A stretch of DNA of 64,000 nt from Streptomyces hygroscopicus (GTDB taxonomy: Bacteria > Actinomycetota > Actinomycetes > Streptomycetales > Streptomycetaceae). The stretch's first letter is position 1, and each line of letters starts with the position of its first letter. Shown one piece after another: positions 33,034 through 42,432 of this stretch. The notes beneath the pieces are model-generated. The model did not search any database. It saw only the letters and a program-made list of their open reading frames with translations, and was not told the origin of the DNA. The translations under genes were made by a program, and so were the position numbers. The stretch is taken from NCBI GenBank assembly GCA_002021875.1, contig CP018627.1, positions 10,354,001-10,418,000 on the forward strand, written 5' to 3'.

Positions 33034-35583
33034 TCAGCCGACGACCGATTGCGGGTGGAGCAGGAGCAGAGCGATGTCATCGCTGTGGGGATCGGTATGC
33101 GGGTCGTGGTGGATGAGGGCGTCGGCGAGGGCGTCCATGGGCTGGCCGCGGGCCTGTGTGAGCTGGTCGGCGAGGTGCGTGGTCGCGTCGTCGAGATCGA
33201 CGTCGGGACTCTCGACGAGGCCGTCGGTATAGAGGGCCAGCACGGCGCCGGGCGGCAGGGGGATCTCGGTGGCCGGGTAGTCGGCGCCGGGGTCGATGCC
33301 CAGCAGGAGGCCGGGTGGCAGGTGGAGGACCTCGGTGTGTCCGTCGGGGTGGCGCAGCAGCGGGGGCGGGTGGCCGGCGGTGGCCAGGTGGGCGACGTGG
33401 TGTGCCAGGTCGATGTGGGCGTAGAGGCAACTGGTGAACAAGCCGGGGTCGAGGTCGGTGAGCAGGCGGTTGGTGCGGGCGAGGACTTCCCCGGGATGTG
33501 CCCCGGCGGTGGCGTGGACGGCGGTGCGGACCTGTCCCATGAGGGCGGCGGCGTTCACGCTGTGGCCTTGGACGTCGCCGATGGCCGCGGCGACGGTGGT
33601 GGCGTCGCAGCGGATGAGGTCGTAGAAGTCGCCACCGATGTCCATGCCGCGAGCCGTGGGCAGATAGCGGGCCGCCACCTCCAGCCCGGGCACGGTCGGG
33701 AGGGCGGCGGGCAGCAGGCCGCTCTGCAGACCGTGGGCAAGCTGGTGTTCGGCGTCGTAGAGCCGGGCGCGGTCGAGGGCCTGGGCGATCAGTCCGGCGA
33801 GAGAGGTCAGGACGGCGCGTTCGTCAGGGGGGAAGTCGTGGGGCCGGTCGTAGGAGACCACGCAGCAGCCGACCGGGCGACCGGAGGCCAGCAGCGGCAG
33901 GAACGCCCAGGCCGCCCTTTTGGTCAGCCGTGGGATGTAGGGAGCGAGCTGATTCATCTCGTGCGGGGACGCGAAGAACAGGGGTGCTCCCGTGGTCACG
34001 GCGCGCACGGTAGGGGCCGAGTCGTCCCGGAGGGGAGGGATGTCGAGGCGGTTGATGACCTCGGGTGGGTATCCACGGTGGCCGACGACACGCAGCCGGT
34101 CGCCCTCCGCCACGGACAGGACGAAGCCCTGGGCGCCGAAGGCGGGCAGGACCAGGTCGGCGGTCAGCTCGACCACGTCCTGAACGCTGACGGCCTCGGT
34201 GAGCGCGCCGGCCAGGTGCATCAGGTCGTACAGCCTGCCGGACCGTGTCGGTGTGGCGATGTCCGCCCCGCGTCCCGGGCGGTCGATCGGGGCGGTGTTG
34301 TCGGTGGGGGAGACGCGCACACTGACACCGGAGGCATCCGGGCAGAGCTGGAAGGACAGCCACCGGTCCGGCGGGCGCAGGGCGGTGAAGGACGTGGGCC
34401 GGCGGCCGAGCACAGCGGTCCGGTAGCGGTCGTCGAAGACCGGGTCGTCCAGCCAGGGCAGCGCCTCCCACAGCGGTGCGCCGAGCAGATCCGGGACGCT
34501 CCCGCCGACCAGATCGGCGGCGGTGGCGTTGATGAAAGTGATCCGGCCCGCCACGTCCAGCGCGCAACAGCCCTCCGGGAGGCGGTCGGCGAAGTCCACC
34601 GCGGCCTGTGCCTGGACCGGCCCGGCGGTCCAGGTCCGTGGCGGGGCCGCCACGTGTGGCTCTTCGGGTGCTGTCGGATGGCCGTCCGCGGCGGCATGCC
34701 GCAGGAACGCCCCCACCCGGTCGCAGGTGGAGCCGATCACGGTGCGCTCATGGGCGCTCAGGTGCGGCCGGCGCGGACCGGGCCACAGCAGCACCAGTCC
34801 GCCCCAGACAGTGGTGCCGGATGTGACCGGTGCGGCGGCAAGCGCCACCGGGTAGGGCCATACCAGCGCTGCCCTCGGGTAGCGGCGCGCCAGCTCCGCC
34901 TGGCTGGCGAGCCACACCAGGCGCCGCTCACGCACCGCGTCCGCCACCGGACCCGAAGCCGGAAGCCGCAACCGTTCCCAGAGCTCGGCGATCTTCGGCG
35001 GCATCCCGGTCATCACGGCCAGCCGCAGCACCTGTCCGCCGGGCGGCAGCAGATACACCAGGCCCGTGGACGCGCCCGCTTCCCGTACCGCCGTGCACAG
35101 CAACGCATCCAGCGGCTCCATACCGGAGCCGGCGACAGGTGAGGCATCCTCCCGCGCCCCCTGCCCCTCCTCCGCGACGTGCCGCACACGCCCGAAGCGG
35201 CGCCTGGCCGCCTCGGCGCTGATCCCAAAGGCGGCGCCGATCCGCGCCCAGCCGATCCCGGCCTGCCGATCGGCCAGCACCGCGTGCCGCACCAACCGCT
35301 CGGCCAGTCCGGGAACCTCCGCCACCGCGGCACAGTGGCAGCCCACCGCGGCTTCCCGCGCCGGGGACAGCTCACCCGCCCGCTGCGCTGCCGCCTGAAC
35401 CCGGTCCAGCAGATCCGCGCCCGCGAGCACCATCGCCTGCCGCGACTCGGCCGCCGCCGGCCACCGACACCGCGCCCGCCAGGCCGCCTGCCGGTGTGCC
35501 GGACTGCAATACCGCCGGTTGTGGCCGGCCCGATTCGGTAGCGGCGCATCGCACCAACCGCACCGAACATCACCCATATACAC
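33034..35583 (-). CDS. Zn finger-HTH-GAF-PAS-GAF-SpoIIE phosphatase
   Basis: An 849-residue cytoplasmic phosphatase. The N-terminus has a CxxC...CxxxH finger (C8, C11, C26, H30) and a helix-turn-helix-like segment (AGIGWARIGAAFGISAEAAR, about residues 108-127). A GAF domain follows (about 155-290), then a PAS domain (about 325-440), a second GAF (about 455-600) and a PP2C/SpoIIE catalytic domain (about 610-845; MDIGGDFYDLIRCD, IGDVQGHSVNAAALMG, LALYTDGLVESPD, SDDIALLLL). SpoIIE enzymes dephosphorylate anti-sigma antagonists. No kinase or antagonist is adjacent. The start is uncertain within a few codons. Confidence 0.9.
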   Translation of the reverse strand: MYMGDVRCGWCDAPLPNRAGHNRRYCSPAHRQAAWRARCRWPAAAESRQAMVLAGADLLDRVQAAAQRAGELSPAREAAVGCHCAAVAEVPGLAERLVRHAVLADRQAGIGWARIGAAFGISAEAARRRFGRVRHVAEEGQGAREDASPVAGSGMEPLDALLCTAVREAGASTGLVYLLPPGGQVLRLAVMTGMPPKIAELWERLRLPASGPVADAVRERRLVWLASQAELARRYPRAALVWPYPVALAAAPVTSGTTVWGGLVLLWPGPRRPHLSAHERTVIGSTCDRVGAFLRHAAADGHPTAPEEPHVAAPPRTWTAGPVQAQAAVDFADRLPEGCCALDVAGRITFINATAADLVGGSVPDLLGAPLWEALPWLDDPVFDDRYRTAVLGRRPTSFTALRPPDRWLSFQLCPDASGVSVRVSPTDNTAPIDRPGRGADIATPTRSGRLYDLMHLAGALTEAVSVQDVVELTADLVLPAFGAQGFVLSVAEGDRLRVVGHRGYPPEVINRLDIPPLRDDSAPTVRAVTTGAPLFFASPHEMNQLAPYIPRLTKRAAWAFLPLLASGRPVGCCVVSYDRPHDFPPDERAVLTSLAGLIAQALDRARLYDAEHQLAHGLQSGLLPAALPTVPGLEVAARYLPTARGMDIGGDFYDLIRCDATTVAAAIGDVQGHSVNAAALMGQVRTAVHATAGAHPGEVLARTNRLLTDLDPGLFTSCLYAHIDLAHHVAHLATAGHPPPLLRHPDGHTEVLHLPPGLLLGIDPGADYPATEIPLPPGAVLALYTDGLVESPDVDLDDATTHLADQLTQARGQPMDALADALIHHDPHTDPHSDDIALLLLHPQSVVG

Positions 35584-37390: not shown

Positions 37391-38302
37391 TCAGATGCGG
37401 TCGGCCGCGATCAGGAGGTACTGGAAGGAGCCGTCCTTGTAGGAGTTGATGAACGCTTCCTCAATGCCGGTGACCAGTGAGGACGTGGCTCGCAGCTCCC
37501 AGTACGGCAGGGTGGCGGCGGTGAGGTCGATGAGGGCCTGCGGTACGAGCCGGTTGTCGGCCATGGCGCGCAGATACTCCCGGCGGGAGTGGATGTTGCA
37601 CTCGAAGTGCGCGTTGATCTGGGAGACCCACTTCGAGGGCTGGCCGTAACGGGGGTTCCAGCAGCCGGTGATGGTCACATAGCGACCGCCGACCGCGAGG
37701 ATGCGGGAGTGCTCGGCGAAGAGGTCGTGCAGGTCGACGTACATGCTCGACTCGTTGTTCCACGAGGCCGCGATCTGCCCGGTCTCGAAGGGCGTACCGA
37801 GCATATTGCAGACACGGGCGTGGACGTGGTCCTCGATGCCGAGCTCGCGGGCGCGCTGGTTGGCGAAGTCCGCCTGCTTGGCCGACAGGGTGACGCCCTC
37901 GACCTTGCACCCGAAGCGCTGGTGGGCCATGACCATCGAGCCACCGCGGCCGCAGCCGGCGTCCACGAGCGTGTCGTCGCGCTCCATGGGGCCGAGGTGG
38001 TCCAGGAGGAGTTCGGCCTGTGCCGATTCCAGGCGGTGGAGTTCGGCGATCAGCTTCTTCTCGGATGCGCTGTCGTCCGCGTCGCCGAGGGCGGTGCGGT
38101 CGACAGCGCCGATGCCGTAGTGATGATGGTAAAGGCCGTCGACATCGCCGAGACGCAAGTTCACCGGCCTGGCCTCGCCGTCCCAGTAGCGGGCGATGTC
38201 CCCCTGGTAGGGCGTCACCGGGGCGGGGATGAACACGGAGGCGGCGCTGGTGGAGATGGCGGCGTCGGTGGTGAGGTCGGTACTGGTCACAGATAAGTCC
38301 AT
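37391..38302 (-). CDS. Geranyl diphosphate 2-C-methyltransferase
   Basis: A 303-residue SAM-dependent methyltransferase that methylates C2 of geranyl diphosphate, giving the C11 precursor of 2-methylisoborneol. It has ARYWDGEARPVNLRLGDVDG, GLYHHHYGIG and the SAM motif LVDAGCGRGGSMVM. The close match to the GPPMT family is reinforced by its position: its ATG lies only 5 nt after the stop of the 2-MIB synthase gene (TAA-GAAGA-ATG), so the two are cotranscribed and coupled. Confidence 0.95.
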   Translation of the reverse strand: MDLSVTSTDLTTDAAISTSAASVFIPAPVTPYQGDIARYWDGEARPVNLRLGDVDGLYHHHYGIGAVDRTALGDADDSASEKKLIAELHRLESAQAELLLDHLGPMERDDTLVDAGCGRGGSMVMAHQRFGCKVEGVTLSAKQADFANQRARELGIEDHVHARVCNMLGTPFETGQIAASWNNESSMYVDLHDLFAEHSRILAVGGRYVTITGCWNPRYGQPSKWVSQINAHFECNIHSRREYLRAMADNRLVPQALIDLTAATLPYWELRATSSLVTGIEEAFINSYKDGSFQYLLIAADRI

Positions 38303-38307
38303 TCTTC

Positions 38308-39636
38308 TTACCAGAAGTCGGGCAGGCTGTAGCGAAAGGTGTTGGTCTGGTGCCAGTAGTGGTTGCCGTCGACCCACGCGGCCACGCCCCGCAGAAAGCG
38401 CTGCACGCTCAGGACGGGGCAGGCGGCGGCCAGAGCCGCGGCTTCGGCTTCGAAGTCGTGCATGAGGTCGTTGTGGACGTCGACCGACTTCAGATAGGCC
38501 TCGCGGTCGGAGATGCCCTCACGTTCGGCGATCACCACGGGCAGGTTCAGGTGATGCCCGGGGGAGGCGAGTTCCTTGGTGTACGAGTACAGGTCGTTCA
38601 CGATGGTGGTGGCGTTCCCGGCGAGCGCGATGACGCGCTGCATGGCGGGCGTGGCGTGCAGGTCCGCCGGCAGCTCGTAGCCGCCGACGGTGTCCGTAAT
38701 GGTGGGGCAGGGGCGGAAGTTGTTGAACTGGCGCATCGCCAGGTATTCCCACACCTCGGGCACGTGGTCCGTCTGGGCCCAGGCGGCCTCGGCGAGGTAC
38801 CCCATGTGCAGACGGGCCATGTCGTGCCGGTACCGGTCCGCCTGGGAGGCGCTGGCCGCTTGGGCGAAGTACTCCATGGCGGAGCGGTACGCGCGCCGGG
38901 GCGCGTCCGAATGGAGCGATTCCGCCCACCGCGGTTGGTACTCCTCCGTCGTGTGCAAGGGGTCGAGGGCGGTGTGCGCCAGCAGCAGCCGTCCGCCGAG
39001 GCCGATGGGCGATCCGCCGTGGTCCTCGCAGTAGCAGTCGTCCACCGCGTTCTCGGCGACCATCAGGCGCGTGGCGAGCATCAGATGGTCGGCGGTGGGA
39101 GCGTCCGGATGGCAGGCGACCATATAGCGCCCCACGGAGAAGCCGTCGAACTGGTCTTCCCAGTCCTCCGGGTACAGATCGACCTCGTCCAGCGCCCAGG
39201 TCTTGATCCTGCGGCTGACCTCCTCCACCCGCACCGGGTCGGGCTCCGGCACCGGATGGTGGTAGAGGCCGGGGATCGGGGTGCCTTCCGCCGGAGCCGT
39301 CGGCGGCTCCACCGGCTCCACCGGCGCCGACGCGCCCTCGCACCGGGCCAGGTGCAGGCCCACCGTGCCCAGGCCACTGGGGCCACGCAGGATCCGACCC
39401 AGGTCGGCGCCCGCTGTTCGCACCTCGGCGGCAGGAATGTCGGTGGGAGGCGCAGCGGTGGCAGGGGCGTCGGCGGGAGGCGATACGGGCATGGACGGCG
39501 CGGGGGATCTGCCGCCGCCGAAGGCGGCCCTGATGTCGCGGGCGCGGGCGGCGGCCTCAGCGAGGACAAACGCCCCGGAGTGCGAACCGGCCCCGGGCGG
39601 GCTCGGCTGCGGAGGGGAAGGCTCAGGCGCGGGCAT
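38308..39636 (-). CDS. 2-methylisoborneol synthase
   Basis: A 442-residue class I terpene cyclase that turns 2-methylgeranyl diphosphate into 2-methylisoborneol, an earthy odorant. Mg-binding motifs are DDCYCED (D199-D205) and NDLYSYTKE (N347-E355); the C-terminus is NTFRYSLPDFW. The first ~120 residues are Pro/Ala-rich and predicted disordered, but contain two conserved-looking islands, AFVLAEAAARARDIRAAFGG (22-41) and ILRGPSGLGTVGLHLAR (82-98). This is the likely cargo-loading region for the shell encoded upstream. GAGGAG precedes the ATG. Confidence 0.96.
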   Translation of the reverse strand: MPAPEPSPPQPSPPGAGSHSGAFVLAEAAARARDIRAAFGGGRSPAPSMPVSPPADAPATAAPPTDIPAAEVRTAGADLGRILRGPSGLGTVGLHLARCEGASAPVEPVEPPTAPAEGTPIPGLYHHPVPEPDPVRVEEVSRRIKTWALDEVDLYPEDWEDQFDGFSVGRYMVACHPDAPTADHLMLATRLMVAENAVDDCYCEDHGGSPIGLGGRLLLAHTALDPLHTTEEYQPRWAESLHSDAPRRAYRSAMEYFAQAASASQADRYRHDMARLHMGYLAEAAWAQTDHVPEVWEYLAMRQFNNFRPCPTITDTVGGYELPADLHATPAMQRVIALAGNATTIVNDLYSYTKELASPGHHLNLPVVIAEREGISDREAYLKSVDVHNDLMHDFEAEAAALAAACPVLSVQRFLRGVAAWVDGNHYWHQTNTFRYSLPDFW

Positions 39637-39736
39637 CCATAGCTCCTCGGTGGGGTGGGTGGCTGTCCCGGATCACGGGCATGCTTGGCCGGCTGGGAGC
39701 GCCGGGCTCTCGTAGCCGCCGGGCAGGGCAGGACCT

Positions 39737-41149
39737 CTAGTCGCGGCTGCGGGCGATCTGCACGTTCTCCAACACACCGAGCGCGTCCGGCACCAGGATG
39801 GCGGCGGAGTAGTACGCAGTGACGAGGTAGGAGATGATCGCCTTTTCGTCGATGCCCATGAAGCGCACCGACAGACCCGGTTCGTACTCCTCCGGCAGAC
39901 CGGTATGGCGCAGACCGATGACGCCCTGGTTGTCCTCGCCGGTGCGCATGACGAGGACCGAGCTGGTGTTCTCCTTCGTGACGGGGATCTTGTTGCAGGG
40001 CAGGATCGGGACGCCGCGCCAGGCCGGGACCTGCTGCCCGCCCAGGTCGACGTGGGTCGGGTAGAGCCCGCGGGAGTTGAACTCCCGCCCGATCGCCGCG
40101 ATCGTCCTGGGGTGCGCGAGGAAGAACTTGGAGCCGCGGCGGCGGCACAGCAGCTCGTCGAGGTCATCCGGGGTGGGCGGGCCCGAGTGGGGCTGGATGC
40201 GCTGCTTGAAGTCGGCGTTGTGGAGCAGGCCGAACTCCCGGTTGTTGATCAGCTCGTGCTCCTGGCGCTCACGCAGCGCCTCGATGGTGAGCCTGAGCTG
40301 CTCCTGGGTCTGGTCCATCGGCTCGTTGTAGAGGTCGGCGACCCTCGTATGGATCCGCAGAATGGTCTGCGCGACGGAGAGTTCGTACTCGCGCGGCTTC
40401 AGTTCGTAGTCGACGAACGTGCCGGGCAGCGCGGGTTCGCCGGTGTGACCGGCCGCCATGGCGATCTCGGCCTCGCCGCGATGGTTCTGCGCGTGACCGC
40501 GCAGGGAACTGAACTCCCGGATGTGCGCCTGGAGGCTCGGCGCCGCGGACAGCACGGCGGCGAAGTCGGCGCGGGACAGGGTGAGCAGGGTGCCGGCGGT
40601 CTCGGCGGTGGCGGTGTAGTCCCACCGGGCCTCCGCGTTCAGCAGAGCGCCCTCACCAAAGCGGTCGCCATCGGCCAGTACGGCGACGGCGGTCTCATCG
40701 CCGTACGGTCCGACGGAGGTCTGGCTGACGCGGCCGTGGGCGATCAGGTGGAACTCCTCGGCGGGCCTGCCGCGCTCCACCAGCGTCTCGCCCGCGCGGA
40801 AGTCGCGCTGGACGCAGCGGTCGGCGATGGCGGTCAGCACCTCCACGTCCTCGAAGCCACGCAGCAGGGCCAGTTCGCCGAGTTCGCGGGGGATCACCCG
40901 GACGTCGGCACCGTCCTGGACGAACTCGACGCGCCCGTCGCCGACGGTGTAGCTCAGCCGGCGGTTCACCCGGTAGGTGCCGCCCTCGACCTCCACCCAG
41001 GGGAGCGTCCGCAGCAGCCAGCGGGAGGTGATCCCCTGCATCTGCGGGGCGGACTTGGTCGTGGTGGCGAGGTTGCGGGCGGCCGCCGTGCTCAGGCTGG
41101 ACTGCCGAGGCGGCTCCAGAGGCGCTTCCGAGCTGGTACCAACAGTCAT
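39737..41149 (-). CDS. eshA: Family 2B encapsulin shell protein, EshA-like
   Basis: A 470-residue HK97-fold shell protein with an inserted cyclic-nucleotide-binding domain (about residues 93-215: [30 protein letters not shown]). The N-arm ([20 protein letters not shown]) and the C-terminal half ([40 protein letters not shown]) are encapsulin-type. Such shells self-assemble around cargo enzymes. The cyclase encoded 101 nt downstream is the cargo by context. An AAGGAG site precedes 41149. EshA of Streptomyces was first described as a growth- and antibiotic-related nucleotide-binding protein. The ligand (cAMP or other) is not known from sequence. Confidence 0.94.
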
Positions 41150-41583
41150 CGGGCGAGCTCTCCTTCGTGAGGGCGATGGCTGGCGTGCGTGCGCGTCACC
41201 GGCAAAGAGGAAAGGAGGGGGCAAACGTCCGGGAATCCGTCCAGACCTGGGGAACAGTAGCGGCCGGTGCACCCATTCGGCCTCGGAGAGCCACTGGCAT
41301 TAACTCGATAAGATGACCGTGCCCCGCCCGTGGTTTGCCCCGGTGGCCGACGGTATTCGGACGCGGTCACGGCACGTGGGTGTCGAGACGGGCGTGAGCG
41401 TCGGCACGGGATGCGCCGCCATCGTGCGGGATCCCGCCCGCTTTCTCCCCGCCCCAGTAATCAGTCCACCCAGTCGTGACTGGCTGTTTTCCACCGGGCG
41501 GGCAGCCGCTGGGATGAAGCTTCCATGGACACGCTGGACGCCCGAAACCCGCTCGCCGCTTCCGCCACTTCGAAAGGCCCTTG
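41150..41583. other. Long gap upstream of the 2-MIB operon
   Basis: A 434-nt divergent region between the encapsulin gene and a PhzF gene. I see no credible gene. It must hold the operon promoter and the PhzF promoter. No clear palindrome stands out. Confidence 0.5.
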
Positions 41584-42432
41584 ATGACTACGCCACGCGC
41601 ACGCTCGTTCATGCAGGTCGACGTGTTCTCCACGAGCCCCTGTCTGGGCAACCCGGTCGCCGTCGTCCTCGATGGGGCGGAGATCACCGACGAGGAGATG
41701 CGGCGGCTGGCGCGCTGGACGAATCTGTCCGAGACCACGTTCGTCCTGCCCCCGACCACGCCGGAGGCCGACTACCGGCTGCGGATCTTCACCCCGGGAG
41801 GTGAACTCCCGTTCGCCGGGCACCCCACGCTCGGCTCGGCGCGCGCGTGGCTGGACAACGGGGGCGCGCCTCGGCACGCGGACCGTATCGTGCAGGAGTG
41901 CGGCGCCGGCCTGGTCACCGTGCGCCGTGGTGATGGCACCTTGTCGTTCGCCGCCCCGCCGCTGGTCCGCGACGGCGCGCTCGACGACGCGTACCTGAAC
42001 CGGATCGTCGCCGCGTTCGGTATCGAGCGGGATCGTGTCATCGCCCACCAGTGGGCCGACAACGGACCCGGCTGGGCCGTGGTCCAGTTGCCCACGGCCG
42101 AGGAGGTGCTCGCCCTCGAACCCGACCTGTCCCTCATCCCGGACGCGATGGTCGGCGCGATCGGTGCCCACCCCGAGGGATCCGAGCACGACTTCGAGAT
42201 GCGCACCTTCGCTCCCGGCGTCGGCGTGGCCGAGGATCCCGTATGCGGCAGCATGAACGCCTCGGTCGGGCAGTGGCTCACCGCCACCGGTGCGGCGCCG
42301 TCCGCCTACCGAGTCTCCCAGGGCGCGTGCCTGAGCCGGGCCGGGACCGTCGACGTCATCGCCGACGAGGACGGCACCGTCTGGGTCGGCGGCGCCGCCA
42401 CCAGCTACATCCGGGGCACCATCACCCTCTGA
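41584..42432 (+). CDS. PhzF family protein
   Basis: A 282-residue PhzF/YddE-fold protein. It opens SFMQVDVFSTSPCLGNPVAV, has the conserved glutamate in TNLSETTFVLPP, and the FTPGGELPFAGHPTLGSARA and EDPVCGSMNASVGQWL blocks. It is a paralogue of the protein at 9989-10813, with different substrate loops. AAAGG precedes the ATG. The substrate is unknown. The next gene downstream is a dead threonine aldolase. Confidence 0.9.
   Translation: MTTPRARSFMQVDVFSTSPCLGNPVAVVLDGAEITDEEMRRLARWTNLSETTFVLPPTTPEADYRLRIFTPGGELPFAGHPTLGSARAWLDNGGAPRHADRIVQECGAGLVTVRRGDGTLSFAAPPLVRDGALDDAYLNRIVAAFGIERDRVIAHQWADNGPGWAVVQLPTAEEVLALEPDLSLIPDAMVGAIGAHPEGSEHDFEMRTFAPGVGVAEDPVCGSMNASVGQWLTATGAAPSAYRVSQGACLSRAGTVDVIADEDGTVWVGGAATSYIRGTITL

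Follow-up and report, generated by a model that had tools for sequence, protein, structure and literature searches.

The questions raised by this locus are whether a strain of Streptomyces hygroscopicus keeps its 2-methylisoborneol (2-MIB) synthase inside a protein shell, whether cyclic nucleotides control that shell, and whether the shell is needed at all. The locus lies in a 64,000-nucleotide stretch, here called the window (G000:C1:10354001-10418000), of a single-contig host genome of 12.0 Mb, and it carries, in this order on the minus strand, the genes of a shell protein (41149-39737), a terpene cyclase (39636-38308) and a methyltransferase (38302-37391). The cluster adds one member to a known kind and is an ordinary 2-MIB operon for the Streptomyces violaceusniger group. 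Taken as a whole, the explanation that we consider very likely is such an operon with a synthase loaded by a short tag, a shell without a cyclic-nucleotide gate and a methyltransferase that stays outside. What may be of use to the field is a set of natural deletions of the shell gene, all of them outside the window, which suggest that the compartment is dispensable and that the tagged synthase is still under selection.

All three proteins exceed curated NCBIfam cut-offs in profile searches, and their Pfam domains are concordant. The shell protein (470 amino acids, EshA type, 39737..41149, minus strand) reaches 774.9 bits against NF041163, the model of the family 2B encapsulin shell (cut-off 400), and scores 465.7 bits for PF19307 and 62.7 bits for PF00027. 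Its closest PDB relative, the solved structure 9BHU (chain 9bhu_A, 852.6 bits), aligns with residues 42-508 of a longer open reading frame, and residue 42 pairs with residue 1 of the chain, so that a start at 41149 fits the N-terminus of the solved protein. The domain order is that of a family 2B shell: an N-terminal arm precedes a cyclic-nucleotide-binding (CNB)-like domain (residues ~115-201, 40547..40807, minus strand, PF00027 match), which is inserted before an SrpI-like HK97-fold domain (residues ~219-467, 39749..40495, minus strand, PF19307 match above its cut-off).

The cyclase (442 amino acids, 38308..39636, minus strand) belongs to the 2-MIB synthases of the encapsulin-cargo type, with 506.6 bits against NF041167, the family 2 encapsulin cargo terpene cyclase (cut-off 400), and with the 2-MIB synthase structures 3v1v (659.3 bits) and 3v1x (651.7 bits) as PDB relatives. 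Its catalytic domain (38455..39063, minus strand, PF19086, 107.2 bits) contains the metal-binding motifs DDCYCED and NDLYSYTKE, as read from the alignment. The methyltransferase (37391..38302, minus strand, likely ATG at 38302) scores 475.6 bits against NF041943 (cut-off 400) and 558.7 bits against PDB 4f84, and these curated and solved relatives, together with the metal-binding motifs, identify the two enzymes as a pair of 2-MIB synthase and geranyl diphosphate (GPP) 2-C-methyltransferase. AlphaFold2 models were too poor for use, with a mean predicted local distance difference test score of 38 for the shell and of 50 for the cyclase (23-row alignment).

The shell and cyclase genes are separated by 100 nucleotides, and the gap between the stop codon of the cyclase and the likely ATG of the methyltransferase is 5 nucleotides. 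Because this spacing is tight, a single operon is credible, and the available text of PMC6428758 reports eshA-mibA-mibB as an operon in S. venezuelae. The preliminary description of this DNA had placed the three genes correctly, with family scores far beyond chance, and its view of them as one operon is credible; it was also right that the cluster is not novel, the idea of encapsulation being largely published. The window cyclase is 98% identical to a cyclase of Streptomyces sp. 11-1-2, and the tree rows nearest to the window are those of S. niphimycinicus and S. samsunensis.

How the cyclase would enter the shell is suggested by its N-terminal head. According to the accessible part of a 2021 survey (PMC8346489), 904 family 2B operons contain terpene cyclases, many of them also C-methyltransferases that usually lie beside 2-MIB synthase-like cyclases; the head, 100-120 residues long, mostly lacks annotation and is in many cases predicted to be disordered, and a GPTGLGT consensus is proposed as a possible targeting sequence. 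The window protein has this make-up, namely a 2-MIB synthase-like cyclase with a long unannotated head, probably disordered to judge from its composition and from that survey, and with GPSGLGT at residues 85-91. Encapsulation of the synthase, as earlier claimed, is thus supported by family membership and by the tag motif of the survey. In 121 close cyclases (the window plus the best 120 among the matches listed), G85, P86, G88, G90, T91 and L94 never vary, and conservation is fair across residues 21-41.

The preliminary description had counted two conserved islands of the head as the loading signal, and only the second of them holds up in this role. In 80 rows, comprising the window and 79 loci (L044, at a contig end, was excluded), the score of each head was compared with the highest among 30 shuffled versions of it; 65 rows formed the shell group (62 shell-bearing loci, the decayed L065 and L111, and the window) and 15 were shell-less. 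Island 2 (RILRGPSGLGT; residues 79-96, 39349..39402, minus strand, with the core GPSGLGT at 39364-39384) exceeded the shuffled heads in 65/65 and 15/15 rows, respectively, and the exact GPxGLGT was found in 61/65 and 15/15. Island 1 (residues 21-41, 39514..39576, minus strand) did so in only 36/65 and 6/15, is lineage-specific, and may be a helper within its lineage. Because island 2 stands above the shuffles in every row, and because the shell-bearing L117 has a cyclase that nearly starts with it, island 2 is likely to be the general loading signal, as far as sequence comparison goes.

In the mechanism that we propose, the shell protein would assemble into an HK97-fold compartment, and the RILRGPSGLGT segment of the flexible head would draw the 2-MIB synthase into it. 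The methyltransferase, in whose sequence the GPxGLGT motif was not found, would most likely remain outside and supply 2-methyl-GPP; this substrate would pass into the shell and volatile 2-MIB would pass out, and the inserted CNB-like domain would not act as a cAMP or cGMP gate.

Whether such a compartment is needed can be approached through the relatives of the locus. The sample consisted of the best 80 of 296 confirmed relatives, two genomes contributing two loci each, and being made of close relatives it gives no genus-wide rate. Of the 79 loci that could be assessed, the cyclase has a shell gene next to it in 62 and no shell gene within 8 kb upstream in 15 (L042, L045, L047, L048, L055, L056, L062, L064, L067, L068, L073, L076, L081, L082 and L109); L111 keeps a remnant, and L065 has a fusion, in which shell residues 1-315 are joined in frame with the cyclase head and the tag reads GGPRGLGT (L065:1867-3930). 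A second supposed shell-cyclase fusion, at L093, was rejected, as a stop codon lies between the two genes. At all 15 shell-less loci both enzymes are intact, catalytic motifs included, and the tag core is kept.

The losses are visible as deletions in the DNA. The window sequence aligns with the 15 shell-less loci down to ~41047-41233, around the shell start at 41149, and in 14 of the 15 the alignment picks up again at ~39396-39823, a stretch that runs from the final codons of the shell gene into the head of the cyclase; additional shell pieces are retained in L064. In L047 and L055 the first shell codons are joined in frame to the cyclase head. The former lies in a complete chromosome and the latter in a 9.2 Mb contig, so assembly gaps cannot account for all of the losses. 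The junction sequences differ among five close species (L042, L048, L055, L067 and L081), for which one old deletion, later widened, is a possible alternative explanation, and the non-sister loci L056 and L081 have identical BLAST boundaries and can be aligned across the junction. On a quick gene tree, in which 26/76 inner branches have less than 80% support, shell presence and absence require at least 8 changes, read as 8 losses; L102, a row outside the shell-less set, has a very long branch, which is most probably due to a methyltransferase match that ended early (two residues) and left the rows unaligned. In addition, the shell match of another genome (G452:C1:782452-783273) begins only at position 177 of the profile and immediately precedes a 2-MIB-type cyclase; it is possibly an N-terminally truncated shell.

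The ratio of nonsynonymous to synonymous substitution rates was low in six chosen shell-less pairs, at 0.076-0.259 for the cyclase and 0.074-0.148 for the methyltransferase, although much of the divergence may be older than the losses. Ten shell-bearing pairs span 0.021-0.305 and 0.036-0.156, respectively, and these spans take in the shell-less values. S. rugosispiralis RCU-064, the strain of the shell-less L042, has a 2-MIB cluster that is predicted, rather than a measured product, in the text available from PMC10525797. The shell seems to be accessory to the synthesis of 2-MIB, not a precondition; PMC6428758, citing older work, describes EshA as dispensable for 2-MIB biosynthesis, and two cyanobacterial enzymes are enough for 2-MIB production in E. 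coli according to the accessible text of PMC10580876. Literature searches found no paper title on such a loss of the shell, which is weak evidence of novelty. To learn what the shell contributes to 2-MIB, related species that have it could be compared with those that do not, and strains without the cognate shell could show whether the tag gives access to others.

One alternative is that in the shell-less strains, and perhaps also in the host, the tagged cyclases are taken up in trans by other family 2B shells, which we hold to be unlikely. It draws on the retention of the tag core at 15/15 loci and on the fact that all 15 shell-less genomes contain other 2B shell sequence, which is above the cut-off in 14 and consists in L073 of only two fragments at contig ends. 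Furthermore, in one of these genomes (L183) the sole over-cut-off shell adjoins a geosmin synthase in which two motifs resemble the tag. However, a further 2B shell also occurs in 55/59 shell-bearing control genomes, and since such shells are the rule in these genomes their availability proves nothing; for the same reason no enrichment can be claimed for other shells as a condition for loss. The retained shells share only 45-73% identity with that of the window, a ROK regulator near those of L181 and L182 points to other cargo, and recent loss alone may explain why the tag was kept.

The comparison of identities also led to the rejection of a relocated shell gene, as the shells beside 2-MIB synthases in the 62 loci are 77-96% identical to the window shell, and the range of 45-73% applies to the over-cut-off shells of the 15 shell-less genomes (a 76-bit fragment, G403:C12, and weak matches below 50 bits were left out). 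The host genome itself has three over-cut-off 2B shells. They include a tandem pair (C1:10571027-10573842; L180:7025-9897, minus strand), ~176 kb away and ~65% identical to the window shell, which lies near a ROK regulator, similar to that of L181 and L182, and a xylulokinase gene.

A broader form of this idea treats the 2B tag as a shared address, so that after deletion of the 2-MIB shell the synthase would travel in another 2B shell, and a geosmin synthase could be carried by the 2-MIB shell. The host geosmin synthase (C1:6530964-6533297; L186:4965-7298, minus strand) has the tag HGPTGLGTSAARI near its C-terminus, like the tag of the 2-MIB synthase; no 2B shell gene lies near it, and the three over-cut-off host shells are megabases away. 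If the idea were true, geosmin and 2-MIB, both earthy odorants, might share one compartment, a prospect that we regard as distinctly unlikely.

A related candidate, that tag-bearing geosmin synthases accompany a 2-MIB-adjacent shell, found no support. Among 61 genomes of the host genus, 59 had a geosmin synthase at the cut-off, giving 60 regions (two from G466) and, once the split gene of G423 was dropped, 59 rows. A tag was scored as a GPxGLGT-like motif anywhere or PxG[LFI]GT within the last 70 residues; it occurred in 15/32 rows with such a shell and 17/27 without (Fisher p = 0.30), the shells being the matches listed, down to ~624 bits, so that weaker ones may be missing.

The preliminary description had further proposed that the CNB-like domain makes access to the shell, or its assembly, dependent on a cyclic nucleotide. 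The idea of cAMP or cGMP gating is probably wrong, and as an explanation of this shell it is very improbable, even with a PF00027 match of 62.7 bits and the FGE...R pattern of the window protein in its favor. An alignment of 121 shells (the window plus the best 120 of 8000 matches, 83-98% identical, hence close relatives only) gives FGExALL...xRW as the phosphate-binding cassette, in which Gly165 is conserved in 100%, Glu166 in 93%, Arg175 in 56% and Trp176 in 100% of the sequences. Position 175 is Arg in 68, Thr in 33 and Gly in 7 of the shells while Trp176, Thr181 and Ala182 are invariant, so the pair of phosphate-binding Glu and Arg, which a protein responding to cyclic nucleotides would be expected to keep among close orthologues, is not conserved. 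Because the phosphate-site Arg is lost in close orthologues, a conserved cAMP or cGMP sensor is unlikely, an argument weakened by the restriction of the sample to close relatives. CNB domains usually carry a small residue where the shell has the bulky Trp176. Mean identity to the window is 0.82 for the inserted domain and 0.70 for the linker, compared with 0.90-0.91 for the HK97 parts. Finally, the accessible part of PMC12407261 states, citing a preprint of the same group (its ref. 35), that according to earlier work the insertion domain does not bind any cyclic nucleotide, and that a different ligand is possible. The domain may respond to another ligand, or it may be a structural or display element.

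The remaining alternative, that EshA is a transcription or signaling regulator and forms no compartment, is suggested by PDB chains and proteins labelled 'Crp/Fnr family transcriptional regulator' and by the title of an older paper, which tells of large multimers and developmental effects, but it is highly improbable in view of the SrpI-like domain (465.7 bits), the curated shell model (774.9 bits) and the top PDB relative 9BHU, which the available text of PMC12407261 names as the S. griseus family 2B encapsulin and as the starting model for the map of S. lydicus Sl-Enc2.

Several points weigh against our preferred explanation of a tag-loaded synthase in an ungated shell. The window shell itself has both Glu166 and Arg175. 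The absence of cyclic-nucleotide binding goes back to a single sentence of PMC12407261, a later paper from the group that studied the S. griseus shell. The tag is kept without the shell at 15/15 loci, which may mean a second role or partner for the tag, or recent losses. The identity of the genes, the conservation of the tag and the partial loss of the phosphate-site Arg among close relatives can be read from the sequences, whereas assembly, loading and substrate traffic in the window strain are argued by analogy with relatives.

Upstream of the operon, a pattern search found a conserved block, TCATCTTATCGAGTTAAT (41299..41316, minus strand), in the upstream regions of 36 of 64 shell-bearing loci (the window included), in 12 of the 15 shell-less loci and in 0/15 shuffled sequences. 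It is possibly part of the operon promoter or an element of the BldC region; BldC binds and activates the promoter of the eshA-mibA-mibB operon, as stated in the accessible text of PMC6428758. A PhzF-family gene (41581-42432, plus strand, 207.3 bits) is divergent from the shell operon. Elsewhere in the window, an open reading frame of 849 amino acids (33034-35583, minus strand) has PAS, GAF and SpoIIE phosphatase domains (PF07228, 168.7 bits).

Among known systems, the family 2B encapsulin of S. griseus (Sg Enc, once called EshA; 9BHU, and also 9BHV and 9BI0 of identical sequence) aligns with the whole length of the window shell, and sequence divergence is the sole difference seen. Its cargo is presumably 2-MIB synthase. 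Andreas and Giessen reportedly found in 2024 that this synthase resides inside the S. griseus shell, that its N-terminal domain directs its loading and that cAMP is not bound. For the two enzymes, the matches with the solved 2-MIB synthase (3V1V/3V1X) and the solved GPP C-methyltransferase (4F84/3VC1) span nearly the whole of the respective window proteins. The S. venezuelae eshA-mibA-mibB operon, as far as the text of PMC6428758 goes, has the same make-up as that of the window. The two-component family 2B shell of S. lydicus (Sl-Enc1/Sl-Enc2), described in the available part of PMC12407261, likewise belongs to the shell family with a CNB-like insertion, but it is encoded by two shell genes, whereas the window operon has one. 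In the cyanobacterium Pseudanabaena, the cluster cnbA-mtf-mtc-cnbB, according to PMC10580876, likewise brings together methyltransferase, 2-MIB synthase and CNB-capsid-like genes; unlike the window operon, it has two flanking cnb genes, which are reported to be transcribed separately from mtf-mtc.

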